A stretch of DNA of 64,000 bases, from positions 1-64,000 of the forward strand of contig JAJFKV010000054.1 in the NCBI GenBank assembly GCA_021773055.1, read 5' to 3'. Positions 30,090 to 51,644 of this stretch are shown here, piece after piece. Position numbers and translations under genes: made by a program. This DNA comes from Woeseiaceae bacterium (lineage in GTDB: Bacteria > Pseudomonadota > Gammaproteobacteria > Steroidobacterales > Woeseiaceae). The notes under the pieces were generated by a model. It saw only the letters and a program-made list of their open reading frames with translations, was not told the origin of the DNA and did no database searches. How positions within the stretch are numbered: the first letter of the stretch is position 1; each line of letters starts with the position of its first letter.

Positions 30090-30486
30090 CAAATCCTGCG
30101 TAGTTAAAGACTACATGGCCAAGACCCTGGTGACATTCAAGCCCGACACCGACGTACTCGATGCCGTGCACGTACTTGTGAATAATCGAATCGCCGGTGC
30201 CCCGGTTGTGGACGACGCGGGAAACCTTATCGGCATGTTGTCGGAACTCGATTGCATGAAGGTCGCATTACAAGCCGGTTACCACGACCATTTCGGCGGT
30301 CCGGTCTCTGACTTCATGAGCGATGGCGTTAAGACCGTTGATGGCGAAATGAACATCATCGACCTCGCACAGGAATTTGCAGAAACATCATTCCGCCGCT
30401 TTCCCGTCATGAGGAACAATCGACTTATCGGGCAGATTAGTCGGCGCGACGTTTTGCGCGCGCTGGAATTCTTAGCCAAAGATTAG
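30082..30486 (+). CDS. Tandem CBS-domain protein
   Basis: The 134-residue protein consists of two CBS motifs (about 5-55 and 70-130): DVLDAVHVLVNNRIAGAPVVDDAGNLIGMLSELD and the second pair ending FRRFPVMRNNRLIGQISRRDVLRAL. CBS pairs bind adenosine nucleotides and sense energy or redox state. The ATG at 30082 has an AGGAG site and overlaps nqrM by eight bases, so this is the last gene of the nqr transcript. Nothing else is attached, so it may act in trans, possibly on NQR or a neighbour. Its stop codon overlaps the convergent frdB stop. Confidence 0.88.
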   Translation: MTSKSCVVKDYMAKTLVTFKPDTDVLDAVHVLVNNRIAGAPVVDDAGNLIGMLSELDCMKVALQAGYHDHFGGPVSDFMSDGVKTVDGEMNIIDLAQEFAETSFRRFPVMRNNRLIGQISRRDVLRALEFLAKD

Positions 30487-31226
30487 TCGTTCGCGATCTT
30501 TGTCCCCAACGTGCGCCGGCGAAGGTAGGCGTAGACATCAAGCAGCGGTAGCTCTTTCGGACACACGTCGGCACAGGCCATCATGCCGACACAGCCGAAC
30601 ACGCCCTGATCTCCGGCGACAACCTCGAACCATTCCGCGTCGGTTCGTGCGTCCCGCGGGTCCATCATAAAGCGCGCGACGCGGTTCAAGCCCGCTCCTG
30701 CGAGAAAATCCGGGTTGACGTTTGCCACACCGCAGGAGGCGACGCAGCAGCCGCATTCGATACAGCGGTCACCTTCATAGATCGCGGCCGCGATATCGTC
30801 ACTCATACGCTGTTCTTCGCCGTCTGGGTCGAATGGCAGCTGCTCGTGTATCCACGCCTCCGTTCGTTCGGCCATTTCGCGGAACCAGGTTCCGGTATCA
30901 ACAGACAAATCACCGATGAGTTTGAAGGCAGGCAGCGGGTGTAAGCGGATTTCCTCCGGCAGGTCAGCCGTCAATGTTCGACATCCCAGCGCCGGGCGAC
31001 CATTGACCAACATTCCGCAAGACCCGCAGATCGCTGAACGACAGGCAAAATCAAACTGCAGACTGGCGTCCAGGGTTTCCCGTATTTCACTGAGCGCCAT
31101 GTACAACGTCATGTACGGTCTTTCGTCAATCTCGAACGATTCGATGTGCGGTTTTGACTCCGGATCCTCGGGGTTGTACCGGAAGATCTCAAATTTCAGA
31201 CGACGGGGATTGTTCTTATCGGTCAT
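30483..31226 (-). CDS. frdB: Fumarate reductase/succinate dehydrogenase iron-sulfur subunit
   Basis: This subunit wires electrons between the flavoprotein and the membrane cytochrome b. The 247 residues hold a 2Fe-2S site (C62, C67, C70, C82 in ACRSAICGSCGMLVNGRPALGC region), a 4Fe-4S site (C154, C157, C160, C164), and a 3Fe-4S site in CVGMMACADVCPKELP. The spacing is that of the Wolinella-type (class B) enzymes, in keeping with the single cytochrome b subunit. Translation is coupled to frdA by a four-base overlap. It closes the minus-strand operon and overlaps the CBS gene tail-to-tail by four bases. Confidence 0.93.
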   Translation of the reverse strand: MTDKNNPRRLKFEIFRYNPEDPESKPHIESFEIDERPYMTLYMALSEIRETLDASLQFDFACRSAICGSCGMLVNGRPALGCRTLTADLPEEIRLHPLPAFKLIGDLSVDTGTWFREMAERTEAWIHEQLPFDPDGEEQRMSDDIAAAIYEGDRCIECGCCVASCGVANVNPDFLAGAGLNRVARFMMDPRDARTDAEWFEVVAGDQGVFGCVGMMACADVCPKELPLLDVYAYLRRRTLGTKIAND

Positions 31227-33163
31227 GTCGCTCCTCCAGAGTAGCGACGCAGTTTGCTGCCGATCGCTTCGGTGCTATCCAGGCGCCCTTCTGCAGACTG
31301 ACTGTCCAGCACCCCATCGTTATATTCCTCAACTGATGCCTCCATCTCGATGCGCTCGTCGCTTCCATAGCCACGGTGGCCTGGTGGCAAGTCAATTAGC
31401 CCGACCCTTTCGTAACTCAGGGTTGGTTCACCGGCATCCTGTTGCCATCGCGCCAATGTTCGACTGAGCCAGTCCTGATCATTGCGTAGCGGGTAATCGA
31501 TGCGGAAATGCGCACCGCGACTCTCGGTCCGCGCAAGCGCTCCCATCGCAACTGTTAGCGCGAGGCGCAACATGCCCGGAAGACGCAAGGCAAATGCGAG
31601 CTCCGGATTCGCTCCCGGTCCTTTTTGTATTAGTACCGCATCGTCGCATTCGGAAATGAGTGCCTTCAGCTCATCTACAGCTGACGAAAGATCCGCACCG
31701 TTTCGAAAAATACCGACTTTACCGATCATGATTTCGCCAAGAGCGTCCCGAATCTCATAAACGCTTCGACTGCTACCTTCGCGGCTTAGCAAGCTCTGTG
31801 TGCGCTTCTCTTCTGCATTCAGTGCCTCGAAGGCTGGCCCCGTATTGGCCTGCAATGTCGCGCCAGCGGCGTACTCAGCAACTCTCGCCCCAACCACACG
31901 ACCCGCCACAAGCGTCTCAGCAAGGCTGTTCCCGCCCAGTCGATTGAAGCCATGCATGTCCCAGCAAGCGGCTTCACCCACTGCGTACAAACCGGCCATG
32001 CCATAGGCTTCACCATCTTTGTTGACGCGAACACCGCCCATTGAATAGTGCTGTGTTGGTCGAACCGGAATAAGATCGTGTGCGGGATTGATGCCAGCGA
32101 AATCGCGACAAATGTCGAACACCTCCAACAGTTTGGTTGTCAGGTGTTCTTCACCGAGGTGTCGAATATCGAGCCACAGGTGACGACCGTTCGGCGAATC
32201 CACGCCATTGCCATCCTGAATACACTGCATCATGTGTCGTGACACAACATCCCGGCTCGCAAGTTCCTGCTTTTCAGGCTCGGCTTCGACCATAAAACGG
32301 TGCAGGTTCTTGTCAAGCAAATAGCCGCCATCACCACGACAGCCTTCCGTGATCAGTATGCCGCTCGGCGACAATGCTGTGGGATGAAACTGTACCGCCT
32401 CCATGTTGCCGAGTGGCACGATACCGGTACCAAGCGCGAGTGCCGCACCCGTTCCGTAATTGATCGTTGCGTTGGTGGTATAACCGCCGTAGATGCGTCC
32501 GTAACCACCTGTCGCGATCACAGTTGCTTTGGCCATTACAGCGAAATACGTGCCGGTTCGGAGGCATCGTGCAACGACGCCGTGGCAACGCGCGCCATCG
32601 TGTATGAGTGATACAGCTTCGGCGCGATCGCGCACAGTGATACCTAAGCGCACGACCTCACTATCGACCGCATACAATGCCGCGTGTCCGGTACCCGCAG
32701 CGGCATAACAAGCTCGCCATTTTGCGGTGCCGCCAAAATCACGATGCGTTATGAGGCCGTCGTTCTCGAGAGGTTCTTCGATATCGACGGACTCGCCTTT
32801 AATGAAGTACTTATTCGTTCCACCGCGCACCCGTGACCAGGGAACACCGAAGTGTGCGAGCTCCCGAACGGCGACAGGCGCCTCTTCGGCGAAGATGTTC
32901 GCAACCTCCTGGTCGGCGCCCCAGTCGGATCCGCGTACGGTATCCATAAAGTGCACTTGCGGGCTGTCGCCTTCGGCCTTGACGCAATTACCCAGCGCCG
33001 CCTGCATGCCGCCTTGAGCTGCACAACTGTGGCTTCGTCTCGGAGGTACGAGCGACAAAATCATGGCTTCCTGACCAGCTGCCGCTGCTTCCATCGCGCA
33101 GCGTTCGCCAGCAAGTCCGCCGCCAATAACCAGAACGTCTGTTGTTATCACCTGAGATGTCAT
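31223..33163 (-). CDS. frdA: Fumarate reductase/succinate dehydrogenase flavoprotein subunit
   Basis: The catalytic FAD subunit interconverts succinate and fumarate at the cytoplasmic face. The 646 residues show the FAD fold start DVLVIGGGLAGERCA, the flavin-attachment region RSHSCAAQGGMQAAL with the covalent histidine, the substrate-site segment GCRGDGGYLLD, the arginine in ELASRDVVSR, and the HYSMGGVRV loop. Length and the single, large cytochrome b partner point to the Wolinella/Bacillus branch that commonly reacts with menaquinone. Direction, fumarate reduction or succinate oxidation, cannot be inferred. Four-base overlaps join it to frdC and frdB. Confidence 0.93.
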   Translation of the reverse strand: MTSQVITTDVLVIGGGLAGERCAMEAAAAGQEAMILSLVPPRRSHSCAAQGGMQAALGNCVKAEGDSPQVHFMDTVRGSDWGADQEVANIFAEEAPVAVRELAHFGVPWSRVRGGTNKYFIKGESVDIEEPLENDGLITHRDFGGTAKWRACYAAAGTGHAALYAVDSEVVRLGITVRDRAEAVSLIHDGARCHGVVARCLRTGTYFAVMAKATVIATGGYGRIYGGYTTNATINYGTGAALALGTGIVPLGNMEAVQFHPTALSPSGILITEGCRGDGGYLLDKNLHRFMVEAEPEKQELASRDVVSRHMMQCIQDGNGVDSPNGRHLWLDIRHLGEEHLTTKLLEVFDICRDFAGINPAHDLIPVRPTQHYSMGGVRVNKDGEAYGMAGLYAVGEAACWDMHGFNRLGGNSLAETLVAGRVVGARVAEYAAGATLQANTGPAFEALNAEEKRTQSLLSREGSSRSVYEIRDALGEIMIGKVGIFRNGADLSSAVDELKALISECDDAVLIQKGPGANPELAFALRLPGMLRLALTVAMGALARTESRGAHFRIDYPLRNDQDWLSRTLARWQQDAGEPTLSYERVGLIDLPPGHRGYGSDERIEMEASVEEYNDGVLDSQSAEGRLDSTEAIGSKLRRYSGGAT

Positions 33164-33936
33164 GGCGACACCTCACTGAACAGAAACTCAAGGGGCGGTG
33201 GAACCAGGCCCGCCAGGACCAATAAAGTTAACCCACCCACTCCAAGTATCAGCCAGAAAATGACCTGCTCTATCAGGTGCAAATAGTGACGATGCGGCAG
33301 GAAATCCGAACCCCATTTCACCGCCAGGCGATACAAACCGACACTGGCGTGAAATTCAACACAAAGTAACAGCACCGCATACGGCAACCACAAACCTGCG
33401 GCTACGCGCGCCATGCTGGTCGTCGACTCGATGCCCGGATGCTCACCAAATAGCGGCGTAAAGACATCGACACCCAGCAGGATGAGATGGAAGCTGCCAA
33501 TGACGAGAATCACCATGCCGGTTCGCACTTGCCAGATCCAGAGCATCGACTCGAGATGCGGCACGAACGGTGAGTTATCGCGGCGAGATGCTACTTTCTC
33601 ACGACCCGACTGCTTGAGTCCCTTGGCCAGTTCGATCATGCGGCGACGTTCCCGCAACTGCGCCGGGATTTTTCGCGATGCGAAAATCGCATGCACAATA
33701 AGGATCGCGAAAATGGCGACAACAGTTGGCTGTGCGATGTAGTAATCCTCAAGCATCGTCGCCATCCAGTTGAAGCCGCGTTCGCCAGTCAGTATTGAGC
33801 CAACCAAAACGATGTGGCCCCACATGAACAACGCCAACACCAGGCCGGTACCGCCGCTGACAAGCTCATAGAAAATCTGGCGGCGCGCCTTGGCGGTGGA
33901 ATCAACAACGTCCGCACTAGCAGCTGTAGTCTTCAT
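33160..33936 (-). CDS. frdC: Fumarate reductase/succinate dehydrogenase cytochrome b subunit
   Basis: The 258-residue membrane anchor has five hydrophobic helices and histidines at suitable places for two b haems (for example GHIVLV near 40, HAIFAS, SFHLILLGVD, EFHASVGLYRL). The layout matches dihaem FrdC of Wolinella, where the quinone site faces the outer membrane half and electron transfer may cost or use proton potential. It follows the ImcH-like gene by one base and overlaps frdA by four, making frdCAB the distal half of the electron-transfer operon. Confidence 0.9.
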   Translation of the reverse strand: MKTTAASADVVDSTAKARRQIFYELVSGGTGLVLALFMWGHIVLVGSILTGERGFNWMATMLEDYYIAQPTVVAIFAILIVHAIFASRKIPAQLRERRRMIELAKGLKQSGREKVASRRDNSPFVPHLESMLWIWQVRTGMVILVIGSFHLILLGVDVFTPLFGEHPGIESTTSMARVAAGLWLPYAVLLLCVEFHASVGLYRLAVKWGSDFLPHRHYLHLIEQVIFWLILGVGGLTLLVLAGLVPPPLEFLFSEVSP

Positions 33937-33937
33937 A

Positions 33938-35344
33938 TCATTCAGGGTTCAGGGTGTACATGATTTCCGGATCCTCTTCTTCTTCCGCCAGCAAAACATG
34001 GCAGGTGTCGCATTCGGAAGTTATTTTTTCCCGTTCAGGCGTTCTCATTCTCTTGTTGTGACAACGAAAACAACCGGGAGATTGCTCGTGACCAATGTGG
34101 TTGGGATAGGTGTTCCACCAAACCTGCATTTGCGGAAACACATTGACGGAGTAGATATCACCCAGAGCATCTGCCGCCGTCGAAATTGCCGCAGACTTTT
34201 CGCTCGCGATCTCCGGATAATTGTCGGAATAGTACTGCGTCAGCCCGTCCGTTATGGCTACTCGTGCTGCCTCATGCGAGTCGTACTCGGCATCGATGAC
34301 ACGCAAACTTTCGCGTTTCACGAACGGCAACGTTTGGTCTATCACGCCAGTGCTCATCGCCTTGTCTATCTCGTTACCCGGCGGCTGGTAGATATGACTC
34401 GGCCGGTTGTGGCAGTCAACACAGTCCATTGTTCGCCAGACACCGCCCTCTTCCGGCGCCTTCCTGTCGCTGTACTCCGTAATTACGCCATCACTGTTGG
34501 TCATTTCGACCTGGTAAATCTCCTCACGGGATTCGTTGGAGCGGTAGCGAATGGAGACATCCGGGTCAACATGCCAGTGAATTCCTGTCGAGCCAACGCC
34601 CTCGGAACCACCAACGCGCAACAATAAGGCTGTCGTTAATTCGGTGTTGACCTCGTCATCTTCGTAGTGCTTGCGCACCGATAGCTTGTCGCCCACAAAT
34701 TTCGTCGGCCAGTGACATTGCTCACAGGTGTCTCGTGCGGGGCGCAGATCATGCAGGGGCGTCAAGATGGGACGCGGATAGATATCCAGTGCCACAGCAA
34801 TCAATTGCCAGGCGCCATCCAGTTTCGATTTCACGAACCAGTCCGCACCCGGACCAATATGACATTCGGCGCATTTGACGCGCGAATGTGGCGATCGCTG
34901 GTGTGCAGTGTGCTCGGGTTCCATGACCGCGTGGCATGCCATGCCGCAAAATTCGACAGACTCCATTACCTCAACGCCCTTGTAGGTTGCGGCGCTCAGT
35001 ATGATGACATTGAACATTGTTGCCACCAGAAAAATCAGCAGCCAGTGGCGAGTCTTGGGAACATTGAGATCGAAAACGGGCATCAGCGGGACGCTATCAC
35101 CACCGGCCATTTTGCTCCTCTTGCGGCGCCACAAGACTGCGCCGATCGGTATCAGGGTCAATCCGACTACGAAAATCATCGGCAAGATCAGGAAGGTCAG
35201 AATGCCGAGATACGGGCCGCCCTCAAAACCGAATCGTTCGATCATGAAGAGGCTCAGCATCAACACGAGCGTCGCGACTGCGAGTGCCGTACCGATCAGG
35301 CTGATCGTGCTACGTGTGATAGATACAACAAAGTTCTTAACCAT
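33938..35344 (-). CDS. NapC/NirT-family multihaem cytochrome c, ImcH-like quinol oxidoreductase
   Basis: The 468-residue protein has three membrane helices (about 13-35, 45-70, 100-120) ahead of a periplasmic haem domain. That domain has one CX3CH site (CGMACH at 133-138) and five CXXCH sites (CAECH, CEQCH, CVDCH, CFRCH, CDTCH), so six haems. Three helices and a larger haem count distinguish it from the one-helix CymA/NapC type and match ImcH of Geobacter, which oxidises menaquinol for high-potential extracellular acceptors. The first segment FCGMACHAVMEPE is typical of the NapC/NirT quinol site. It lies between the CbcL-like and frdC genes in one operon. The ImcH assignment is by architecture and context. 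Confidence 0.85.
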   Translation of the reverse strand: MVKNFVVSITRSTISLIGTALAVATLVLMLSLFMIERFGFEGGPYLGILTFLILPMIFVVGLTLIPIGAVLWRRKRSKMAGGDSVPLMPVFDLNVPKTRHWLLIFLVATMFNVIILSAATYKGVEVMESVEFCGMACHAVMEPEHTAHQRSPHSRVKCAECHIGPGADWFVKSKLDGAWQLIAVALDIYPRPILTPLHDLRPARDTCEQCHWPTKFVGDKLSVRKHYEDDEVNTELTTALLLRVGGSEGVGSTGIHWHVDPDVSIRYRSNESREEIYQVEMTNSDGVITEYSDRKAPEEGGVWRTMDCVDCHNRPSHIYQPPGNEIDKAMSTGVIDQTLPFVKRESLRVIDAEYDSHEAARVAITDGLTQYYSDNYPEIASEKSAAISTAADALGDIYSVNVFPQMQVWWNTYPNHIGHEQSPGCFRCHNKRMRTPEREKITSECDTCHVLLAEEEEDPEIMYTLNPE

Positions 35345-35389
35345 GATGGTCCTTAGAGTGTCGTCGTTTTTTCAGGTGGATTGCAGGTA

Positions 35390-37336
35390 CTAATGACCTA
35401 GCAGGGCTAAGATTATCCCAATTGCCAGTGTGACGCCGATAAGTAAAAATACCGTGCCCCATATGTAGGCATGCCGAAGCTCCGCGGGCGTCGGGGCATC
35501 CACCAGGTAGTTATTGAGCTCGTCCTCGTCCAGCATCCGTTGATACTCGAGAGGCCGTTCCACTTGGAACTGTTGCAGCGGCATTTTGCCGAGAAACACA
35601 ACCGGGTCCATCGGAAAACTCTCGGGACGCAGGTGCGTATGGAAAAAATGGAATATGAAGATAAATCCGGTCGCCAGCAATGCCTCATCGCTATGAATGA
35701 CGTAGGCAGCATTCAGCGCCCAGCCCGGCAGGATGGTCGTGAACAAACCCGGTAGCCAGAGCATTAACCCTGACAGACCGATGATCATCACACCCCAGAA
35801 AACGGCCAGATAGTCGAATTTCTCGAAATAGGTCCATCGGTCGCCCGGAGGTCGCTCACCGAGATACAGGAAGTAGCGAACATTGGCAGCAAAATCTCGC
35901 AGATCTTTGGGCTGTGGGACCATTGAGTTGGGCCCCCACAGCAGTCCTTTCTCTTTGTCCATAACCCCGCGCACGAACAAGTGGCCAAGGTGAATCACCA
36001 TATATCCGAACGTGCCGATTGCGGCGAAGCGGTGAATAAATCTCGCTGAGTCGATTCCACCGAGCAAATTGATCAACAACTGCGCCCAGGGTGCCGCATG
36101 AAACTTCAGCGGTAACCCGGTCATTGCAAGCAACAGAAAAGTCAGGATAACGGCAACGTGCATGCGGCTATTCAGCTTCGTGAAACGCCTTACATATTGA
36201 CCGCTGCTGTCGAATTTCTCGCTGAACTCGCCGCGTAAGGTGCCCACCAGGGAACGTTGCAGCCAAAGGATATCGTGCAATCCGAAAAACGCGAATACAC
36301 CGATCAGGAGCGTTGTCATGAAAACCCACACGATGTACACCACGTAGTTGTCGTCTGGATTCGTCGGATCGTTGTGTGGGTCGAAGCTGACGAATGACTG
36401 AGTCACATCGCTGTGGCACTTGCCGCAAGTCGCAACAAGGTTCGCGGGGTTGACGCTGGAAGATGGGTCCTCAGCCGGCAGGTTGTTGTGCGGTGTATGG
36501 CAGTCGGCACACGTCGCGCCGCTGACAAAGCCGAGGTCGTTCGCTTTGCCGTGAAACCCGTCGCGGAAGGTTGTCAGGTATTCGCCGTGGCAACCGCCAC
36601 AGGTATCCGCCGATGCCAGTCGGCTGGCTGCCGTGGTGGGATCGGCAACCTCATGGGTTGCATGGCAGTCGATGCAGACGGGGCCCTCTTCTCCCGCTTG
36701 CCAATGCTGACCATGCGTGCTCTGATTCTTCCATTTCTCCAACAACAACAGATGGCAACTGCCGCACATCTCAGGTGAGTTTTCATGCGCCGCCGGCGCC
36801 TTGTTACTGGAAATCGAGAGTATGCGGTGGTCACCATGACAATCACTGCAACTGGGCGCGTCTATCAAACCTGACAGCAATAGCGCCTTGCCATGTTCGC
36901 TGGTCAAATAACCTTCGATCAGCGACGCGGGAGTGTCGTGGCATGCACCACATTGCTTGATCTGATTGACCGGCGACATCGCCGACGCGAGGTTGTCGGC
37001 CACCTGTATTTCGTGCGGCTCACCATGACAATCAATGCATGAGACGCCGTCATCGTGAACGCTGCGGCCCAGACCACGGAGGATCTTGCCGTGGCACTCA
37101 GCGCAGCTATTTTCGCTGGTCAATGGCTCGAGGTCGCTACCCTCATGCTCTCTCGTAACGTTGGTGTGGCACTCCTGGCAAACAAGGTCCGGGTGTGCCG
37201 TCGAATGAGTGACAACATCTTCATGACACTCTGCGCAATCGATCTCTTGTGCCAGGGTGGGTGATGCAAAAATCGGCAGCAAAAGCAGCCAAAAAGAGCG
37301 CCAAAGAAGACCTGAGACGCGTGCAACCGTATTCAT
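35390..37336 (-). CDS. Multihaem cytochrome c fused to membrane cytochrome b, CbcL-like
   Basis: The 648-residue protein begins with a signal peptide, then a periplasmic domain with 11 CXXCH motifs up to about residue 310. The C-terminal part (about 325-640) has several membrane helices with histidines in HRFAAIGTFGYMVIHLGHLF and IFIFHFFHTHLRPESFP, fitting a dihaem cytochrome b561/HydC-type domain. This c-plus-b fusion is the layout of CbcL in Geobacter, which moves electrons from menaquinol to periplasmic cytochromes at low potential. It sits six bases from the NTF2-like gene and 45 bases before the ImcH-like gene, so two alternative quinone oxidoreductases share one operon. Direction of electron flow is not determined by sequence. 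Confidence 0.87.
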   Translation of the reverse strand: MNTVARVSGLLWRSFWLLLLPIFASPTLAQEIDCAECHEDVVTHSTAHPDLVCQECHTNVTREHEGSDLEPLTSENSCAECHGKILRGLGRSVHDDGVSCIDCHGEPHEIQVADNLASAMSPVNQIKQCGACHDTPASLIEGYLTSEHGKALLLSGLIDAPSCSDCHGDHRILSISSNKAPAAHENSPEMCGSCHLLLLEKWKNQSTHGQHWQAGEEGPVCIDCHATHEVADPTTAASRLASADTCGGCHGEYLTTFRDGFHGKANDLGFVSGATCADCHTPHNNLPAEDPSSSVNPANLVATCGKCHSDVTQSFVSFDPHNDPTNPDDNYVVYIVWVFMTTLLIGVFAFFGLHDILWLQRSLVGTLRGEFSEKFDSSGQYVRRFTKLNSRMHVAVILTFLLLAMTGLPLKFHAAPWAQLLINLLGGIDSARFIHRFAAIGTFGYMVIHLGHLFVRGVMDKEKGLLWGPNSMVPQPKDLRDFAANVRYFLYLGERPPGDRWTYFEKFDYLAVFWGVMIIGLSGLMLWLPGLFTTILPGWALNAAYVIHSDEALLATGFIFIFHFFHTHLRPESFPMDPVVFLGKMPLQQFQVERPLEYQRMLDEDELNNYLVDAPTPAELRHAYIWGTVFLLIGVTLAIGIILALLGH

Positions 37337-37342
37337 TTTTTC

Positions 37343-37714
37343 TTACTCGTATAGAGGTCCAACGTCTGCGTAGACCTTGTAATCCCCAATCAATCCGCCT
37401 TCCCACTCGAAAACGTTTATAAACGGCAATCGTATTTCCGAGCCGTCATGCCGCGTGTAGGTAACTTCACCTTCGCTAATCATCACGTCGTCTTCGGTGA
37501 GCGTCCTGGTCAGGGCGTGACGAAGACCAGCAATCGTGTCGAAGAAGCCGCCCACAGCGGCACGGACAGCCACCCGTCCATGCACCGCAGGTGCCGAGCC
37601 AAAACGGAACGATGCCTCGTCGGTCAGAAAGCCGAGGAACCGCTCCGTATCTTTGGCATCAACCGCCGCGAACAATTCGTCAAGCCGAGCGTGCCTGGCA
37701 TCAACTGTTGTCAT
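37343..37714 (-). CDS. NTF2/SnoaL-like protein
   Basis: The 123-residue protein has the cone-shaped NTF2 fold signature: N-terminal helices (LDELFAAVDAKDTERFLGFLTDEASF), a helix after AVHGRVAVRAAVGGFF, then beta strands ending in INVFEWEGGLIGDYKVYADVGPLYE. Such folds bind small hydrophobic ligands or act as isomerase-like enzymes. No signal peptide or haem site is seen, so it stays in the cytosol, unusual among this operon's products. It overlaps the c4-like cytochrome gene by four bases and precedes the CbcL-like gene by six, so cotranscription is near certain. Function here is unknown. Confidence 0.82.
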   Translation of the reverse strand: MTTVDARHARLDELFAAVDAKDTERFLGFLTDEASFRFGSAPAVHGRVAVRAAVGGFFDTIAGLRHALTRTLTEDDVMISEGEVTYTRHDGSEIRLPFINVFEWEGGLIGDYKVYADVGPLYE

Positions 37715-38325: not shown

Positions 38326-38340
38326 CTCCTAAATGAATTA

Positions 38341-38395
38341 ACCTACTTCTGATAGGTGCCCTATTTTCGACCTGCCCGCAGACAACGAAAATAGG
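38341..38395. promoter_or_regulatory. Two adjacent inverted repeats in the leader of the c4/cbcL/imcH/frd operon
   Basis: ACCTA-N7-TAGGT (38341-38357) is followed by CCTATTTTCG-N16-CGAAAATAGG (38360-38369 with 38386-38395), a perfect 10-bp stem. Both lie between the regulator gene stop and the c4-like ATG. No T-run follows the large stem in either direction, so an operator or mRNA structure is more likely than a simple terminator. Confidence 0.45.
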
Positions 38396-38416
38396 TACTT
38401 GTCGCGATAAGACTGC

Positions 38417-41894: not shown

Positions 41895-41919
41895 GCTAAT
41901 AAGAAAGATAGCAACGACC

Positions 41920-41950
41920 GGCCGGGAGAGAAATCTCCCGGCCTTTTTGT
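41920..41950 (+). terminator. Strong intrinsic terminator after the first decahaem cytochrome
   Basis: A 10-bp GC-rich stem (GGCCGGGAGA / TCTCCCGGCC) closes a GAAA tetraloop and is followed by TTTTTGTT. It lies 25 bases past the stop, so the first cytochrome can be transcribed separately from the mtrC-A-B genes. Confidence 0.9.
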
Positions 41951-44373: not shown

Positions 44374-44393
44374 ACAAAGGACAGGTTGCCACC

Positions 44394-45317
44394 ATGAGAC
44401 TCATCACACTGGTCATCGCCGTGGCGATGCTAATGATCCTGACCGCCAGCCCCGCTGCCGGTCAGGATCCCAACTACAGTCGCGAGGGTGCCGATAGCTG
44501 TCTCTCCTGTCATGAGGAAGAGTTGGTTCTCGCCTTGTTCAAAGGCTCTCATGCGAACCCCAACGACCCAAATGGGCCATTCGGCCACGGTCAGCTGCAA
44601 TGCGAATCCTGCCATGGACCGTCGGGAAAGCACGCCGCACGCGTACGGCGCGGTCAGGAACGCCCTGCTCCCAACGCCATCTTTGGTTCCGACTCCGTAA
44701 CGCCCGTAGACGATCAGAACGGCCTCTGTCTGAATTGCCATACATCGGATACTGGCTTCGGCTGGCATGGCAACGACCATGACAGCAACGAAATCGCATG
44801 CGCGGACTGCCACACGAGCCATGCAGCCCAGGACCCGGTGTTGATAACCTCAACACAAGCGGAAGTTTGCTTCGATTGCCACCAGCAACAACGAACTCAA
44901 TCGCTGAAGCCCTATGCGCATCCGATACGCCAGGGAAAAATGGATTGCAGCGGCTGCCACAGCACACATGGTGCGACCAGTGACCTGCAGTTTGCCCAGC
45001 AGACGCTGAACGATACCTGCTTCGATTGCCATGCCGAGAAACGCGGACCTTATCTTTGGGAGCACGCGCCGGTCGCTGAAGACTGCAGCAATTGTCACGA
45101 CCCACACGGCTCCAACCATCCAGGCATGCTGTCCATGCGCGGCCCGATGTTGTGCCAAAGCTGTCATTCGCAGTCTGGTCACCCAAGTGTACCGGCCGAC
45201 GGCGATGGCTTAGCGAGCGGGACACCTTCGCAATTCATGCTTGGCCAAAACTGTCTGAATTGCCACACACAATCACATGGATCTAATCATCCATCCGGAT
45301 CGAGGTTAATGCGATGA
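44394..45317 (+). CDS. mtrA: MtrA/DmsE-family decahaem periplasmic cytochrome
   Basis: The 307-residue protein has a signal peptide (MRLITLVIAVAMLMILTASP) and ten CXXCH motifs spaced every 20-35 residues, from CLSCH near 36 to CLNCH near 288. This size and count are those of MtrA, MtrD and DmsE, the haem wire that threads the MtrB barrel and takes electrons from periplasmic carriers to the surface cytochrome. There is no membrane anchor. A four-base overlap with mtrB suggests equimolar production. Confidence 0.93.
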   Translation: MRLITLVIAVAMLMILTASPAAGQDPNYSREGADSCLSCHEEELVLALFKGSHANPNDPNGPFGHGQLQCESCHGPSGKHAARVRRGQERPAPNAIFGSDSVTPVDDQNGLCLNCHTSDTGFGWHGNDHDSNEIACADCHTSHAAQDPVLITSTQAEVCFDCHQQQRTQSLKPYAHPIRQGKMDCSGCHSTHGATSDLQFAQQTLNDTCFDCHAEKRGPYLWEHAPVAEDCSNCHDPHGSNHPGMLSMRGPMLCQSCHSQSGHPSVPADGDGLASGTPSQFMLGQNCLNCHTQSHGSNHPSGSRLMR

Positions 45318-47410
45318 GCCGGAATAATAGAGAACTACGCGCTGCGATCGCTGCGGCATTGATTTTGCCTGCCGCAGCGCTAGCGCAAGTTGATACCAGC
45401 GACTGGAAGTGCGAGTACTGCCCGTTTGAAGATGGCTATCGCGCCGAGGTTGATGCCGGCGTCGGCTACGTCAGCGACGATGCTGCTCGATTCGGCAACG
45501 GCACCGGCCAGGATGCGAACGAGGCATATGTCGGTCTCGGTGGCAGCGGTCGTTATCGCAATGGTGGCACTGAATTATCCTGGTACGCAGAGGATCTCGG
45601 CGAAGAATCTCGCGTGTTGAATATCACAGGTGGTCGTCCCGGCAAATTTGAGCTCGGTCTCGAATACAGAGAACTGCCGTACAGGCTGTTTGATACGACC
45701 AGCACCATCTTCACGCCATCCACCGCGAACGTGTTAACACTTCCTGCGGGCTGGGTCACTGCCGGCACAACCGGCGGTTTTTCAGCGCTGGGCACATCAC
45801 TGGTTCCGGTCGACATCGAGAAGGATAGACAGGTCCTCGAATTCGGCGCGAAATATTTACCGACCCGGAAGATCAAGTTATACGCCAATTACAGTCGCCA
45901 ACAACGCGACGGCACTAGCATGATGACCGGATCACGATTTACGCAAAGCACTTATCTGCCGCGTCCGGTTGATGACTACACCGACCAGGTTAATGCCGGC
46001 GCGCGATTCTCTGTCGGCGAGGTAAATCTCGGGCTCGCCTATTTCGGTTCGTTTTACCGCAATGACGTAGATTCACTAACCTGGGACAACCCATTTACGA
46101 GCGCACCAGGCGCAGAACAAGGGCGACTGGCCCTGGAACCTGACAACGACTTCCAGCAATTGTCGCTGACAGGCGTTTATCGCGCGGCAACACTGAATAC
46201 CGTCGTTGCATTTTCCACGGCCGTCGGCCGCGGTGAACAGGACGCTGTTTTCCTGCCGTTCACTATCAATTCTACGTTGCCGACATTTGCTCCGCCGAGG
46301 CCGTCACTGGATGGGCAGGTCGATACCAGCAATTACGCACTGACAATTACGTCACGCCCGTACAAACGCGCCAATATAAAGTTTGCCTATCGCTATGATG
46401 AGCGTGACAACCAAACACCTGTTTCAATGTGGTCGCGTGTTATCACGGATACCTTTTCAAACGGCGGCGCCGAAGCCAATGTTCCGTATTCCTTTGAGCG
46501 CGCAAAACTAAACCTGAGCGGAACTTTGAAACTCCTGGATACGGTCAAGGTTTCAGCCGGTTACGATCGCACCGAGCTCGACCGCGATTTTCAGGAGGTT
46601 GCCAGTCAGACAGAAGACAGCGGCTGGGGTAAGGTTCGCTGGCGACCGACGAGTTATATCGAAGCTTCCTTCCGCGGTGGCGCAGCAACACGCGAAATCG
46701 GTGCATACGATACCGCCGTAGCCGTCAGCCTTGGTCAGAATCCGCTATTGCGTAAGTACAATCTTGCACACCGCTATCGTGAGTTTGCGGAATTCAACTT
46801 CTCGGCATCCATGCCGGAGCAACCAGTATCTGTCGGCATAAGCTATCTGTTTGCTGATGACAGCTATTCGAAATCGGAGCTCGGCATCACCGACAGCGAA
46901 GAGAACCGTCTTAGCGTGGATTTCAACTGGGCAGTATCCAACAACGCGTCGCTCTACCTTAACGCGGGCTCCGAATCCATTGACGCTATACAGCTAGGCA
47001 GTGAGACGCTACTGGGACCCGTTTGGCAAGCAAGCCACGATGATACATTTAGTCACTACGGCGTTGGCTTCGCCATCAAAGGTTTGAATGAAAAAATCGA
47101 CCTCACGCTGGATTACACACGCAGCGATGGCGAAACCGAGATACTGTTTACAGGCCAGAGTGTGTCGAGCATTCCCTTGCCCGACATTGAGTCGACCATG
47201 GACTCACTGCGCCTCACTATGAATTACGAGATGTCGGAACGCATGGATTTGAATTTTGGTCTGCGATACGAGCGTTTCGAGACTTCAGACTGGGCGCTCG
47301 ATGGAGTACAGCCTGACACCATGCCCGTGATCCTGACGATGGGCGCTGACGCGTACGATTACGACGTATGGGTTGTCGGTATTGGTGTCCGCTATCGCAT
47401 CGGAAAGTAG
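45314..47410 (+). CDS. mtrB: MtrB/PioB-family outer-membrane porin of the decahaem conduit
   Basis: The 698-residue protein has a signal peptide and then a CXXC pair (C33, C36 in WKCEYCPFEDG), the N-terminal mark of MtrB that is needed for function in Shewanella. The rest is a long series of alternating amphipathic strands with aromatic girdles, ending in a terminal strand VWVVGIGVRYRIGK, as in a large beta-barrel (26 strands in MtrB). It holds MtrA in the outer membrane and lets it contact the MtrC-like protein. It ends 14 bases before the convergent membrane-protein gene. Confidence 0.93.
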   Translation: MSRNNRELRAAIAAALILPAAALAQVDTSDWKCEYCPFEDGYRAEVDAGVGYVSDDAARFGNGTGQDANEAYVGLGGSGRYRNGGTELSWYAEDLGEESRVLNITGGRPGKFELGLEYRELPYRLFDTTSTIFTPSTANVLTLPAGWVTAGTTGGFSALGTSLVPVDIEKDRQVLEFGAKYLPTRKIKLYANYSRQQRDGTSMMTGSRFTQSTYLPRPVDDYTDQVNAGARFSVGEVNLGLAYFGSFYRNDVDSLTWDNPFTSAPGAEQGRLALEPDNDFQQLSLTGVYRAATLNTVVAFSTAVGRGEQDAVFLPFTINSTLPTFAPPRPSLDGQVDTSNYALTITSRPYKRANIKFAYRYDERDNQTPVSMWSRVITDTFSNGGAEANVPYSFERAKLNLSGTLKLLDTVKVSAGYDRTELDRDFQEVASQTEDSGWGKVRWRPTSYIEASFRGGAATREIGAYDTAVAVSLGQNPLLRKYNLAHRYREFAEFNFSASMPEQPVSVGISYLFADDSYSKSELGITDSEENRLSVDFNWAVSNNASLYLNAGSESIDAIQLGSETLLGPVWQASHDDTFSHYGVGFAIKGLNEKIDLTLDYTRSDGETEILFTGQSVSSIPLPDIESTMDSLRLTMNYEMSERMDLNFGLRYERFETSDWALDGVQPDTMPVILTMGADAYDYDVWVVGIGVRYRIGK

Positions 47411-47424
47411 CTAAAGACGCACGA

Positions 47425-49113
47425 CTAAGCGGTAGCGGGTTTGCCATCGCGGCTAAGTAATTTTGCGACCAGGATTAAGGCGCTACCGACCAATGCGAAT
47501 GCCACGAACAAAGTGACAGGCCGCCCGTTCGGGAAGTCCTCAAGGAACAACTTGAACCCTACAAGCACCAGAACCGGATAGACCAGCCAGCGTGCTTCTG
47601 GCCAACGCTTGTAGCGACTGGAAAGCGCCAGGCTAACAGATGACGCGGCCAGCACCGCCGTCCGCAGCGCCGCGAGCTTCGCCAGGTCGACGTTCTGGTC
47701 ACCCGCATTAGCCAGTACCGGTGCCATGAGCACTACCAGCAGACCGCCCACCTCCCAGACTGAAAGTGCCAGAACGATTAGTTGTGGCAGTCCGGCGAGC
47801 ACACCCCAGCGTTCGGAACGTTGCGCCACAGGGATAAACAAACAGCTAACGGTTGTCAGGGCGATGATGACATGCCACGGCAGCAGAGCCGGCCACACGT
47901 CGCCAACGCCTCCCGCGAATGCCTGCAAACCGGTCGTCAGAATGCCGGAGGCGACGCCTGCAGCCAGCAACAGAAAAGTACATTGCAGACTCAGGGCCAC
48001 CCTGCCATAGCGACCGCTAAACCATGCCATGGCCAGAGCCATCAGCGACCAGGCCGCGGCGGCCTTGCCAGGCGACATCAGCAGCGCGCTACCAGCGACT
48101 ACAAGAACCAGTCCCATTGTGGAATAGAAAAAGAAATTGCGACCGCGAACAGCTCGCGTCTTTGGCGTAAATGCCATCGTATAAGCGCAGACGCTGAGAA
48201 TAAGGCTCAGAAAACCCGCCGCGGACGATATATCGGTCCCAACATGTGATGCGATAAGCGCTGTCAGGAATGATATGCCGATCATCGTTATTCCCTGAGC
48301 CGCCTCAAAAATCCCGACGTCCTGGCCGCGAATATGCGTCCGGATGGCAAAACTACCGAGATATGCGACCAGCAACATCGCCGCCATCATGAAAGGAGTG
48401 AGTGCTTGCACGGACCACCGGTCGCTAAGGCTAAGCATCGCCAATACCAGCACACCTGCATTTGCGCCGAATGCTCCGAGCCACTGTACGCAGATCCACT
48501 TGCGTTGGTAGACCGCCCACAGTGAACCTAGTCCGAGCAATACCAGGAATACCGCAGTCTCAACTGCACTGTGCGACGTGTTTAAGACTACGAAAGCTGC
48601 AGCGATGCTTCCGGCTGTTACCACCCAGCAAAGACTTCGTAGATTTCTTGCAATGGCAACCCAAACAGATAACGCGCAAAATATCGTCAGGGCGACAACA
48701 CCCTGTCGGCCCGTAAGCAAATCGAACCGGGTGGTGGCTTCAACGAATAACGGCAGCGCCAGGAATACCGACGAGGCGCCATAAAACAATGCGTTCAGCC
48801 GCGCGTCCTGATTTCGTCCTGTTCGATACGCCATGTACAACCAGAAAAACGCGTAAATCGTACCCAGCAGGATACCCACTGCCGTCGGTACGATTTGTTC
48901 ATCGGTGATCGCGCGCAACAGAAACGCACCGCCGAAAATAAGCAGGACCTTGCCGATGTGGGTAGGGACGTTCGAGAGGACGGCTGTGTTGCGCGCTGCA
49001 ACATCTTCGTCAGTGCCCTCAACCGCTACACCCGGCCGTGTGCCTTCGAGGACACGGAGCCGTTGCTCGATTGCGGCAAGGCGCACATCCAGATCAGCAA
49101 TACTGTCTTCCAT
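47425..49113 (-). CDS. Polytopic membrane protein, DUF2339-like
   Basis: The 562-residue protein starts with a soluble coiled-coil-like segment (IADLDVRLAAIEQRLRVLEG) followed by about 14-16 hydrophobic helices to the end. This layout resembles DUF2339 proteins, though I would not assign the family firmly. No catalytic motif, haem site or cluster site is visible. The start is three bases after the NrfD-like gene stop, so it is almost certainly cotranscribed with the cytochrome-ferredoxin-NrfD set. It could be an assembly factor or extra membrane partner, or merely a passenger. Confidence 0.78.
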   Translation of the reverse strand: MEDSIADLDVRLAAIEQRLRVLEGTRPGVAVEGTDEDVAARNTAVLSNVPTHIGKVLLIFGGAFLLRAITDEQIVPTAVGILLGTIYAFFWLYMAYRTGRNQDARLNALFYGASSVFLALPLFVEATTRFDLLTGRQGVVALTIFCALSVWVAIARNLRSLCWVVTAGSIAAAFVVLNTSHSAVETAVFLVLLGLGSLWAVYQRKWICVQWLGAFGANAGVLVLAMLSLSDRWSVQALTPFMMAAMLLVAYLGSFAIRTHIRGQDVGIFEAAQGITMIGISFLTALIASHVGTDISSAAGFLSLILSVCAYTMAFTPKTRAVRGRNFFFYSTMGLVLVVAGSALLMSPGKAAAAWSLMALAMAWFSGRYGRVALSLQCTFLLLAAGVASGILTTGLQAFAGGVGDVWPALLPWHVIIALTTVSCLFIPVAQRSERWGVLAGLPQLIVLALSVWEVGGLLVVLMAPVLANAGDQNVDLAKLAALRTAVLAASSVSLALSSRYKRWPEARWLVYPVLVLVGFKLFLEDFPNGRPVTLFVAFALVGSALILVAKLLSRDGKPATA

Positions 49114-49116
49114 GGC

Positions 49117-50370
49117 CTAGCTACCTTCCGTGTCCCTCCGCAGCGAAGGTACAAATTTGTTGATGATCCAGAACAAGAAAAATGGCGTTGCGATAACCGT
49201 CAGCGCACCGAACACGCCTTCTTTAAATGTCTCAAAACTATGCGGAATCACCGGTATCTCGTAATGCATGTAACCGGAGAACGACAATGAGAACGCCTGG
49301 CCACCGATAACGACATTCCAGCGCATCATGAACACACCGAACAGAACCAGCAAAAGGGCTATGACAGTACGAAACAGAGTTCGCCGCGGCAGAATCAGAA
49401 GCACAAACGGAACCAGGTTGCCCAGTCCGTACTGCAGCACAAAAATATTCAGAAAGTCCTTGCCATACATTACTGACCGCAGAATATCCCAGGACTTCAT
49501 GGCCGTGTAGCCACGGAATATGAGGTCAAGCATCTCCAGGCTAATCGCTGCAACCAGGAAACCCAGCAGGTATTTGGCCGCCTTGTTGATGACCTCTTCT
49601 TCCGCTCCCTTAATTTGGCCGGCCTCCAAAGCACCACCACCACGTCGTCGACGAAATGCCTTCCATTCCATGATGACAATGTACGTAAACATGCAAAGAG
49701 CGATGCCCGATACAACGGCAGACATGATGAAGATCACCGGCATCAACGGTGACATCCATAAGGCGTTGGCCTTGACCGAGCCGAAAATAAACCCGGCATA
49801 ACCGTGTAAGAAACACGCAACCGGTATGCCGATGGCTGCGAGCACTGTGGCCGCTTTTTTGTCCACTTTGATGGCGCCATCGCTGACGTCGTAGGCGCCA
49901 ATCGTCAGGACTCGATAAACCGTCCGCTTCATTGCGTTCGATAATCCGGCCATCTCCTTCAGCGCATGAACCTGCTCAACAAAATATTTCCGATAAACAA
50001 ACCATATTTCGCTGAGGACGATCAGCGCATAGGTTGTGAATACGATACCAAAGGCCGCGATTGCTGACGTGAAATGGGGTGTAAGCAGAGGTTCCATCGC
50101 CCTCGTTGGTTGCTGCAAGTGCAACAACAATGGCAGCGCCGCAACAGGCAACAATGCCAGCGAAAAGACCAGTGAAAACTGGGCAATTTCCTTGAGGTCC
50201 TTTTGCCCAAACACGTGGTACAGGGATGACAGTACGAACGCGCCAGCCACCAGACCTGTCATGTAGGGATACATGACGATCTGAATGCTCCAATAGATGA
50301 ATTCGTTGGGATAAACGAATAGTTCTTTTACGGTCCACTCAATTCCGTGAACAACAGGTTCATCTAGCAT
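49117..50370 (-). CDS. NrfD/PsrC-family quinone-reactive membrane subunit, CbcU-like
   Basis: The 417-residue integral membrane protein has nine or ten helices and the NrfD/PsrC arrangement, with the quinone-site region near PYMTGLVAGAFVLSSLYHVFG and charged residues in LEMLDLIFRGY. NrfD subunits exchange electrons between quinone and an iron-sulfur partner without binding haem. The gene follows the ferredoxin gene by four bases. With the tetrahaem cytochrome it mirrors the Geobacter Cbc4 set (CbcS, CbcT, CbcU), a third candidate quinone:cytochrome link in this locus. A link to a molybdoenzyme was considered, but no catalytic subunit is encoded nearby. Confidence 0.88.
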   Translation of the reverse strand: MLDEPVVHGIEWTVKELFVYPNEFIYWSIQIVMYPYMTGLVAGAFVLSSLYHVFGQKDLKEIAQFSLVFSLALLPVAALPLLLHLQQPTRAMEPLLTPHFTSAIAAFGIVFTTYALIVLSEIWFVYRKYFVEQVHALKEMAGLSNAMKRTVYRVLTIGAYDVSDGAIKVDKKAATVLAAIGIPVACFLHGYAGFIFGSVKANALWMSPLMPVIFIMSAVVSGIALCMFTYIVIMEWKAFRRRRGGGALEAGQIKGAEEEVINKAAKYLLGFLVAAISLEMLDLIFRGYTAMKSWDILRSVMYGKDFLNIFVLQYGLGNLVPFVLLILPRRTLFRTVIALLLVLFGVFMMRWNVVIGGQAFSLSFSGYMHYEIPVIPHSFETFKEGVFGALTVIATPFFLFWIINKFVPSLRRDTEGS

Positions 50371-50374
50371 CAGA

Positions 50375-51145
50375 TCACCTCACTTCCGCGTCGAGGCCGA
50401 GGTAAAAGACATGTGGCTTGGTGCCGTACTCGTCTTTCAGCACTGAAACTCGTTCGGTTCTGATAATTTTCGCGACCGGATCGTCCGGGTCTTTCAGGTT
50501 CGCAATTCGCCGAGCCCCGAACGAGCAGTTCTCGACACAAGCCGGATCCATGCCCTTGCTGATGCGGTGGTAACAGAAGTTACATTTGTCGGCGACCTTC
50601 TTCTCAGGATGAAAGAAACGCACCCCGTACGGACAAGCCATAATGCAATAGCCACAGCCTATGCACCACTCCCTGTCGATCAGAACAACGCCGTCGCTGG
50701 TCTGATAGGTCGCACCGACCGGACACACCTGAACACAGGCCGGGTTATCACACTGATTGCATAGTTTGGGGACGAAGAATGCCTTGGCGATATCTTCTGG
50801 CTCGACTTCTTCATCACGTATCTTGTCGCTGATAAATCCGTCGCGTCCACCCATGGGTGAATCGATGTGAGTCTCACCATCATTCGTCACGACGTATCGT
50901 TCGACCCACGTGCGTGTAACCGCTGCGTCGTAAGGAATTTCATTCTCGTTCTTGCAGGCCTTTACGCACAGCCCGCAACCAACACATTTCGTAGTGTCTA
51001 CCAGGAAAGCCCAACGAACTTTGGCCTCATCAAGTGCCGCTGCTGCGTCCGCCTGGCTTATCAACGTAAATGCGCTCAACGGCAGGGAGGACACCAGCGA
51101 ACCGCCGACGGTATTCTTAAGGAAGTCTCTCCGAGAACAAGTCAT
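50375..51145 (-). CDS. Exported 4x[4Fe-4S] ferredoxin subunit, CbcT-like
   Basis: The 256-residue protein has a Tat signal (SRRDFLKNT, then a hydrophobic segment to about residue 35), so it folds with its clusters before export. Sixteen cysteines fall into four groups: CVGCGLCVKAC; CNQCDNPACVQVC; CIGCGYCIMAC; and CNFC with CVENC. This is the DmsB/NrfC/PsrB pattern of four 4Fe-4S clusters. It bridges the NrfD-like quinone subunit and the tetrahaem cytochrome. The start overlaps the cytochrome stop by four bases. Confidence 0.9.
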   Translation of the reverse strand: MTCSRRDFLKNTVGGSLVSSLPLSAFTLISQADAAAALDEAKVRWAFLVDTTKCVGCGLCVKACKNENEIPYDAAVTRTWVERYVVTNDGETHIDSPMGGRDGFISDKIRDEEVEPEDIAKAFFVPKLCNQCDNPACVQVCPVGATYQTSDGVVLIDREWCIGCGYCIMACPYGVRFFHPEKKVADKCNFCYHRISKGMDPACVENCSFGARRIANLKDPDDPVAKIIRTERVSVLKDEYGTKPHVFYLGLDAEVR

Positions 51146-51627
51146 TCCGATTCCTCCTCTTCCACATCCTCTTTGGGATCGTGCGGGTCATGGCACTTTA
51201 TGCACTCGTAGCGACGTTTGTGCCTTCTGTCTTCGATGCTTAATAACTCGCCTCGAGCGCTGTTGGGATATTCGAGATACGCATGACACCGCAGGCAAAG
51301 TTCTCTGCTCTTGTTGAGCGGCAGATACTCCACATCATCCGGGTGATTTACGGACGGGCCGTGACAGTTTTCGCATTCAACCGGCTCATGCGTTGAAGAA
51401 TTGAGCTTCGTAACATTATCTTCATGACATTCAACACAGGATTCCCTACCCCGATACTTAACCGGAAAGTCCTTCCATTCCTGAATGTTGCTCAAACGGT
51501 GATAACCGTAAGTAAAGTTACGACCGTGAACTCCGAAGTCATCGGGCACGATAACTTGTCGAGCAATGAGGATCGAACCGACCAAGCCGATCGCTACCCA
51601 TAACGGGCGCAGTACGTGCCACTTCAT
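51142..51627 (-). CDS. Membrane-anchored tetrahaem cytochrome c, CbcS-like
   Basis: The start at 51627 gives 161 residues and has a GGAGG site five bases upstream; a TTG at 51642 would add five residues. One N-terminal hydrophobic helix (about 8-24) anchors or exports it. Four CXXCH motifs follow: CVECH, CENCH, CLRCH and CIKCH, in the cytochrome c3/NrfB style. The C-terminus is very acidic (EDVEEEESE), a likely docking surface. Together with the next two genes it matches the cbcS-cbcT-cbcU order of Geobacter. A short GTTCC-TGT-GGAAC hairpin lies just upstream. Confidence 0.87.
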   Translation of the reverse strand: MKWHVLRPLWVAIGLVGSILIARQVIVPDDFGVHGRNFTYGYHRLSNIQEWKDFPVKYRGRESCVECHEDNVTKLNSSTHEPVECENCHGPSVNHPDDVEYLPLNKSRELCLRCHAYLEYPNSARGELLSIEDRRHKRRYECIKCHDPHDPKEDVEEEESE

Positions 51628-51644
51628 TACCGCCTCCCCCAAAA

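Follow-up and report, generated by a model that had tools for sequence, protein, structure and literature searches.

Within a 64,000-nucleotide stretch from a Woeseiaceae bacterium (Gammaproteobacteria; assembly GCA_021773055.1, contig JAJFKV010000054.1, positions 1 to 64,000), hereafter the window, a 16-gene locus at 30483-51642 appears to encode an electron-exporting respiratory chain with interchangeable quinol oxidases. We place the probability of this reading at about 0.68; the genes, their families, haem motifs, topology signals and conserved linkage are observed, and the direction of flow, the partners, the acceptor, the regulation and the identity of the quinone are inferred. Every part is of a known kind. 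The grouping of the parts is unusual, and it is widespread among relatives.

The 16 genes encode 52 CXXCH motifs and one CX3CH (CGMACH, residues 133-138 of the ImcH-like protein), the same count as in an earlier first-pass annotation of this DNA. When the residues of the same 16 proteins were shuffled 500 times, the mean was 0.25 CXXCH and the maximum was 3, which rules out a chance origin of the motifs. One minus-strand run reads pdsA-like, snoaL-like, cbcL-like, imcH-like, frdC, frdA, and frdB, with an fnr-like gene upstream. Divergent from it, on the plus strand, are omcA/mtrC-like, mtrC, mtrA, and mtrB. A second minus-strand run comprises genes for a 4-haem cytochrome, a Tat-type iron-sulfur protein, an NrfD-type membrane protein, and a DUF2339 protein. 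The first-pass annotation ended the locus at 51627, in agreement with an ATG inside the last gene (residue 6); the list of open reading frames (ORFs) starts that gene at a TTG at 51642. Each family it named is backed by a profile or by homology, some with scores below curated cut-offs, and its list passed over two genes, those for a SnoaL-like protein (37343-37714) and a DUF2339 membrane protein (47425-49113). The candidate electron-transfer genes are as follows.

33938-35344, minus strand: ImcH-family quinol:cytochrome c oxidoreductase; NapC/NirT N-terminus, CX3CH plus 5 CXXCH, three long N-terminal helices in the structural model, placement by tree.
35390-37336, minus strand: CbcL/MtrH/MtoC-family b/c cytochrome; 11 CXXCH, 37% identical over 568 aligned columns to a Geomonas oryzae protein.
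37711-38325, minus strand: PdsA-like periplasmic dihaem shuttle; 2 CXXCH, NF049874 at 179 bits over residues 20-204, below the cut-off of 330.
39498-41894, plus strand: second OmcA/MtrC-like decahaem lipoprotein; 10 CXXCH, lipobox LGGC, PF22113 at 76 bits (cut-off 30), TIGR03507 at 129.6 bits (below 209.3).
42142-44373, plus strand: MtrC decahaem lipoprotein; 10 CXXCH, lipobox LAAC, TIGR03507 at 478 bits (cut-off 209), aligned with MtrF (3pmq, 731 residues) and 6r2q_C.
44394-45317, plus strand: MtrA periplasmic decahaem cytochrome; 10 CXXCH, TIGR03508 at 279 bits (cut-off 192), aligned with 6r2q_A over 283 residues.
45314-47410, plus strand: MtrB porin; N-terminal CEYC, TIGR03509 at 411 bits, PF11854 at 454 bits, residues 19-696 aligned with 6r2q_B.
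49117-50370, minus strand: NrfD-type membrane subunit (CbcU-like); PF03916 at 118 bits, 64% identical to its Geomonas counterpart (L146:14446-15690).
50375-51145, minus strand: iron-sulfur subunit (CbcT-like); Tat motif SRRDFLK, Fer4_11, 68% identical to Geomonas.
51142-51642, minus strand: 4-haem cytochrome subunit (CbcS-like); 4 CXXCH, 45% identical to Geomonas.

ImcH proteins are recognized by three N-terminal transmembrane segments, a CX3CH motif, and 5-9 CX2CH motifs (PMC6295460). All three features are present in the window protein, and its assignment to the family is borne out on the features that sequence can test. Hydropathy segments lie at residues 11-40, 41-74, and 98-122; the predicted structure (mean pLDDT 78.8) has helices at 13-37, 44-79, and 96-127. 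A fold search of the PDB with this model returned nothing meaningful (best E 0.17), and hence the model contributes the helix count alone. The CX3CH (CGMACH at 133) and the five CXXCH are kept in 22 of 22 rows of the ImcH alignment. The ImcH tree was built from 79 rows, namely the window and 78 of 80 loci from named genomes; the two loci without an ORF of more than 380 residues were left out. CX3CH occurs in 75 of the 79 rows, and the rows without it in the tested stretch come from Myxococcota (three) and Acidobacteriota (one). The window's clade, with a support of 99, contains all 25 labelled Pseudomonadota rows and two unlabelled rows, one of which is the window itself. Acidobacteriota and Myxococcota neighbour this clade; Geomonas, whose ImcH is 43% identical to the window protein, belongs to another, long-branched set. 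Among the best 80 of 555 candidates from the named-genome scan, the nearest relatives with a name were Woeseiaceae and gammaproteobacterial metagenome-assembled genomes (MAGs). The first-pass label of Geobacter-type, read as an origin, is thus not supported for this protein by the tree.

The CbcL-like protein has 11 CXXCH, within the family range of 3-23 CX2CH in the N-terminal part. Its H354, H393, H435, H449, H548, H563, H566, and H568 are invariant in 25 rows, the family criterion being three conserved histidines as possible b haem ligands. Hydropathy segments were found at 330-359, 390-414, 507-536, and 622-648, with others below threshold; members of the family mostly have six transmembrane segments. 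The Geomonas oryzae protein to which it is 37% identical (568 columns) has 9 CXXCH and is itself named CbcL by similarity only. Known members span identities of 28.6-100%, and G. sulfurreducens CbcL is 35-36% identical to MtrH and MtoC (PMC6295460). On motif count, invariant histidines, and identity to Geomonas oryzae, membership of the CbcL family is upheld. Identity to a protein from a Rubrivivax MAG is higher, at 51%, and a tree from a quick search under a simple model, which carried a long-branch warning and left Geomonas unplaced, groups the window protein with pseudomonadotan sequences. Genes for mtrH/mtoC sit with mtrAB/mtoAB in several species, so CbcL/MtrH with mtrAB was already known, in Rhodoferax and others (PMC6295460), and a Geobacter-type origin cannot be read from this gene. 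In some relatives (L058, L059, L061, L071, L073, L092), a CbcL form of about 950 residues with 19 CXXCH adjoins an 11-CXXCH paralogue; in L058, L059, and L061 this pair replaces the single cbcL.

The third inner-membrane module is close to a set from a Geobacteraceae genome. Geomonas oryzae carries a 4-haem/iron-sulfur/NrfD set about 3 kb from its imcH (L146:9968-16948), and its subunits are 45, 68, and 64% identical to those of the window. From this identity we tentatively take the set as CbcSTU-like; CbcSTU of Geobacteraceae combines a c-type cytochrome with iron-sulfur and NrfD/b-type subunits. Identification as NetBCD was dropped, given the high identity to the Geomonas set and the lack of a match of the 4-haem subunit to the NetB model NF049875 at 0.001. 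The complex is patchy: L032 is the one locus of the 26 from relatives in which it was seen (some of the fetched stretches may stop before reaching it), and it occurs in 6 of 27 pseudomonadotan loci from named genomes.

For the outer membrane, mtrC, mtrA, and mtrB are contiguous and encode 10, 10, and 0 CXXCH; MtrC has a lipobox and MtrB is a porin. All three exceed curated cut-offs and can be aligned with solved chains of MtrF and MtrCAB, which confirms the set as MtrCAB. The product of 39498-41894 is named OmcA/MtrC-like only. The label of OmcA/MtrC-type decahaem lipoprotein holds at the PF22113 cut-off and fails at that of TIGR03507, and the PDB search returned no match for this protein. Extra mtrC copies next to mtrCAB are common, in 44% of clusters (PMC8805035). 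A short collagen-like Gly-X-Y stretch follows the lipobox in both surface lipoproteins (39498-41894 and 42142-44373). The periplasmic carrier had been called c4-like; PdsA-like fits better, with an NF049874 match over nearly the full length, albeit below cut-off. The PdsA type is known from Aeromonas and Vibrio, and the usual Shewanella carriers are FccA/CctA (PMC8805035). A CcmF/NrfE-type maturation gene is present in the genome. Outside the window on the same contig (C50), at about 69-73.6 kb, are two large multihaem ORFs, L008:5072-6640 and L008:6595-9570, with 21 and 39 CXXCH in 522 and 991 residues, respectively.

The distribution of these genes was followed from cbcL and from imcH. A CbcL-like match of at least 540 residues was present in 27 of 99 genomes, the window's own included, and the stretches around the other 26 were fetched; several end at contig edges, so that gene counts are minima. 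In the 26 loci, imcH and a pdsA-like gene were each seen in 21, an mtrC-type and a snoaL-like gene each in 17, mtrA in 14, and mtrB and frdA each in 12. cbcL, imcH, and an mtr gene occurred together in 14 loci, and the full set in 6. Linkage of cbcL and imcH spans 52-83% CbcL identity and several genera of the order, and the pairing is therefore old. The named-genome scan for imcH relied on two short peptide patterns; of 555 candidates, the best 80 were retained. Among these 80 loci, imcH was accompanied by cbcL and at least one mtr-type gene in 15 (Pseudomonadota 8/27, Acidobacteriota 6/38, Bacillota 1/1) and by both mtrA and mtrB in 5 (3 Pseudomonadota, 2 Acidobacteriota); because the MtrA and MtrC profiles pick up related decahaem families as well, the 15 is softer than the 5. 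In a phylum-wide draw of 398 genomes, no genome other than the window's own had ImcH at E 1e-20, which means that an even draw misses the family. The rarity suggested for the combined locus is not sustained, since the combination was found in many relatives (14/26) and in some Acidobacteriota (6/38).

Two alternative origins were weighed against this distribution. The source is a 3.97-Mb MAG of 89 contigs, 89% complete, with a contamination estimate of 5.55%, and contigs of two organisms might have been joined in it. Such a chimera is contradicted by the gene order, which recurs in many further genomes, several named MAGs among them; we give the chimera practically no weight. Alternatively, horizontal transfer might recently have brought together a Shewanella-like mtr cluster and inner-membrane genes of Geobacter, as mtrCAB is mobile and carries passenger genes (PMC8805035), and the NrfD and iron-sulfur subunits are 64-68% identical to Geomonas. 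The window ImcH and CbcL nevertheless fall with pseudomonadotan sequences in the trees, the cbcL-imcH linkage is old by its range of CbcL identity, and the NrfD complex is patchy. A recent hybrid is thus highly improbable.

In the proposed chain, the neighbouring Na+-NQR would oxidize NADH and reduce the quinone pool. Quinol would then be oxidized by any of three alternative inner-membrane modules (ImcH-type, CbcL/MtrH-type, and the CbcSTU-like NrfD complex), presumably matched to acceptors of different redox potential. The electrons would reach the PdsA-like dihaem carrier and cross the MtrA-MtrB conduit to MtrC, which would hand them on to the second OmcA/MtrC-like lipoprotein and to an extracellular acceptor, be it Fe(III), Mn(IV), or another. 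The dihaem fumarate reductase would be an alternative sink on the same quinone pool, and the FNR-like protein probably turns the set on without oxygen. The proposed chain is supported by the contiguous mtrC, mtrA, and mtrB, the invariant ImcH features, the linkage of the modules in relatives, and the maturation gene; the outward direction is favoured because the only role so far ascribed to ImcH homologues is quinol oxidation (PMC6295460). PdsA with MtrCAB has been implicated in metal reduction (PMC8805035).

The main rival to outward flow is the reverse: electrons would enter by way of MtrCAB from Fe(II), other minerals, or another cell, and quinone would be reduced by the CbcL/MtrH/MtoC-type protein. 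Homologues of this protein occur in Fe(II) oxidizers, PioAB works inward, and MtoAB has been proposed to do so (PMC6295460, PMC8805035). Type II RubisCO and sulfur-oxidation genes have been reported in Woeseiales MAGs (PMC7451513), and the undetected menaquinone head-group pathway, described below, would suit ubiquinone-linked uptake. Against inward flow stand the restriction of ImcH homologues to quinol oxidation so far (PMC6295460), the fumarate reductase and the FNR-like regulator at the locus, and the absence of a carbon-fixation gene among the scanned window genes, a scan that did not take in every ORF. We regard it as unlikely, and outward flow remains the preferred reading. The remaining genes of the locus, and those that lie beyond frdB on the plus strand just outside it (menA-like, nqrA-F, apbE, and CBS-domain genes, 22192-30486), are listed below.

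30483-31226, minus strand: FrdB iron-sulfur subunit; NF010071 at 362 bits (cut-off 264).
31223-33163, minus strand: FrdA flavoprotein; NF006383 at 944 bits (cut-off 663).
33160-33936, minus strand: FrdC dihaem cytochrome b subunit; H41, H82, H150, and H196, PF01127 above cut-off, NF010072 at 113 bits (below 187).
37343-37714, minus strand: SnoaL-like NTF2-fold protein; PF12680, model pLDDT 92.9, generic NTF2/limonene-epoxide-hydrolase-type matches.
38417-39139, minus strand: CRP/FNR-family regulator; PF00027 and PF13545 above cut-offs, FnrL/FixK/Fnr models below cut-offs.
47425-49113, minus strand: DUF2339 protein with multiple transmembrane segments; PF10101 at 35.9 bits (cut-off 33.6).
22192-23172, plus strand: MenA-like UbiA-family prenyltransferase, abutting nqrA; TIGR00751 at 111 bits (cut-off 102).
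23162-28876, plus strand: nqrA-F, Na+-translocating NADH:quinone reductase; NqrA Pfam domains, NqrB (590 bits) and NqrF (661 bits) above cut-offs, C, D, and E by position only.
28873-29895, plus strand: presumably an ApbE-like flavinyl transferase, named from sequence and position; it adjoins nqrF in relatives.
29983-30486, plus strand: CBS-domain protein; PF00571.

With FrdA and FrdB above curated cut-offs and four haem histidines in FrdC, the fumarate reductase is by its profiles and ligands of the Wolinella type. FrdC aligns with chain C of the W. succinogenes quinol:fumarate reductase, and its histidines lie at positions matching dihaem FrdC structures. An SdhA-like gene, 41% identical to FrdA, is present elsewhere in the genome; Frd is thus unlikely to be the sole succinate dehydrogenase and is free to act as fumarate reductase. 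The Nqr is the likely quinol source for the locus. At 9169-12071, the window also holds genes for an oxaloacetate decarboxylase beta subunit family protein and a biotin-dependent carboxylase-type subunit, which together with Na+-NQR suggests sodium-based energetics. Several related loci likewise have a DUF2339 gene close to imcH, frd, or the NrfD complex.

The position of frdCAB directly downstream of imcH also permits a reading in which periplasmic or internal acceptors, such as fumarate reductase and nitrate reductase, are the main outlet of the inner-membrane modules and the linkage to mtrCAB is incidental. The contig that holds the window also carries, at about 88-89 kb (L009:4100-5201), a napB-like gene (104 bits, below the cut-off of 230) and a napC-like gene (TIGR02161, 315 bits, cut-off 311), so that by these scores the contig may encode a periplasmic nitrate reductase. 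Wolinella-type fumarate reductase takes quinol directly, which argues against this reading, as does the composition of the 26 relatives' loci, with pdsA-like in 21 and mtrC-type in 17 compared with frdA in 12. We consider it very unlikely.

Several observations weigh against the outward chain as proposed. Between cbcL and CBS-apbE-nqr, loci L048 and L049 lack both imcH and frd, and L046 keeps imcH but lacks frd. In four relatives that do not belong to the family (L052-L055), imcH-cbcL is accompanied by no mtr gene in 10.8-20 kb. No FNR-box-like site with at most one mismatch to the consensus was found in 30000-52000. The PdsA-like, FrdC, and second MtrC-like proteins all fall short of their NCBIfam cut-offs, and the model behind the second lipoprotein, PF22113, also exceeds its cut-off in E. 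coli, one of 14 control genomes. In this genome, MenD was not found above cut-off (best 73.6 against 244.2 bits; MenB, MenC, MenE, and MenF were not searched) and MqnA/MqnD gave no family match, which leaves the low-potential quinone for outward flow unaccounted for.

The supply of quinone was followed in the 99 genomes. MqnA/MqnD was found in none of them, and MenD at E 1e-60 or better in 9, a strict limit that could hide divergent MenD. A prenyltransferase at least 47% identical to the window MenA-like protein was present in 42, the window's own included. None of these 42 has MenD at E 1e-60, and all 9 MenD genomes carry a MenA only 28-36% identical (Fisher p 4e-8 over the 54 genomes with either type, a comparison chosen post hoc that ignores relatedness). 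The 27 cbcL genomes divide into 20 with window-type MenA, 4 with MenD, 2 with another MenA and no MenD (G043, G055), and 1 with neither (G090). For the 19 relatives with both cbcL and window-type MenA, the two genes lie within 20 kb on one contig in 9 and on different contigs in 10, with G046 carrying them on two separate long contigs. Window-type MenA without MenD or MqnA/MqnD possibly reflects scavenging of 1,4-dihydroxy-2-naphthoate (DHNA) or an unknown quinone route.

The fold of the SnoaL-like protein is a generic NTF2 fold and permits no statement on function. Its gene was seen in 17 of 18 pdsA-bearing fetched loci with window-type MenA (the exception being G038) and in 0 of 3 with another MenA. 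It directly adjoins menA-like in G088 (L056; L056:7362-7748), and in G091 menA-like, pdsA-like, snoaL-like (L197:3872-4297), mtrB, and mtrA are grouped (L197). Ten further stretches around window-type menA came from genomes in which the cbcL match was absent or fragmentary; snoaL was not seen in nine (L190-L196, L199, L200), and in the tenth (L198) it adjoins pdsA-like. The tie is therefore to menA plus pdsA, not to menA alone. Tentatively, the chain's quinone may be made by neither known menaquinone route, with the distinct MenA using scavenged DHNA or the head group of an unknown pathway, perhaps with the SnoaL-like protein involved; we consider this proposal less likely than not. Some bacteria, such as Lactiplantibacillus, use exogenous DHNA for extracellular electron transfer (PMC10746273 and others). 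In the open-access literature, we found no paper linking SnoaL, menaquinone biosynthesis, and MenA, and a search on the quinone of Woeseia oceani gave nothing usable.

In Geobacter, the quinol oxidoreductases feed periplasmic carriers of the PpcA type and porin-cytochrome conduits. The same kinds of inner-membrane quinol oxidoreductase as in the window (ImcH, CbcL, and, tentatively for the window, CbcSTU) occur there in one organism, and ImcH and CbcL work at different potentials (PMC6295460, PMC11434368). The window differs in its partners, PdsA-like and MtrCAB, and its ImcH and CbcL are only 43% and 37% identical to those of Geomonas. The PdsA-MtrCAB systems of Aeromonas and Vibrio likewise combine mtrCAB in a single locus with a PdsA-type dihaem carrier and, as quinol dehydrogenase, NetBCD or CymA (PMC8805035); in the window the quinol oxidases are instead ImcH and CbcL/MtrH, and the NrfD complex is Geomonas-like, with a 4-haem subunit that has no NetB match. 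In Rhodoferax ferrireducens, a CbcL/MtrH member and another type of quinol oxidase share a cluster with mtrABC (mtrABC-cymA-mtrH), but that other oxidase is CymA, not ImcH, and the portion of the report available does not describe PdsA, a CbcSTU-like complex, or fumarate reductase there (PMC6295460). In Desulfuromonas acetexigens, homologues of Mtr, CymA, ImcH, and CbcL are expressed on an electrode by one bacterium; consecutive accession numbers suggest that imcH and cbcL are neighbours, and a joint imcH-cbcL-mtr locus is not stated in the accessible part of the paper (PMC12133095).

Closer to the window, mtrA, mtrB, and mtrC have been reported in sediment MAGs of the same family, with ImcH and CbcL going unmentioned in the available text of that report (PMC12175321). 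In one sediment study, most MAGs encoded cbcL and imcH, which were mostly transcribed (PMC11748539). According to a 2018 survey, no mtrAB/mtoAB was next to imcH (PMC6295460), and in the open-access literature we found no account of a locus that combines imcH with mtrAB. Of the first-pass view that the arrangement is unusual and perhaps undescribed, the absence of an imcH-mtrAB locus from the open-access literature searched stands, and its rarity does not, as many relatives share it. To call the locus Shewanella plus Geobacter overstates its origin, given that the ImcH groups with Pseudomonadota, near Acidobacteriota and Myxococcota, CbcL/MtrH with mtrAB is known, and PdsA is of the Aeromonas/Vibrio type.

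Woeseiales reportedly account for 1-22% of 16S sequences from marine sediments (PMC7082342). The pairing of imcH with both mtrA and mtrB is now seen in two phyla (5 of 80 loci), unlike in the 2018 survey. If minerals are respired via interchangeable quinol oxidases and one MtrCAB, the link between acceptor potential and energy yield known from Geobacter would become testable with a Shewanella-type outer membrane. The undetected head-group pathway yields a specific prediction on quinone supply. If these sediment bacteria do make their quinone by neither known menaquinone route, their extracellular respiration would rely on neighbouring organisms or on a novel pathway to quinone.

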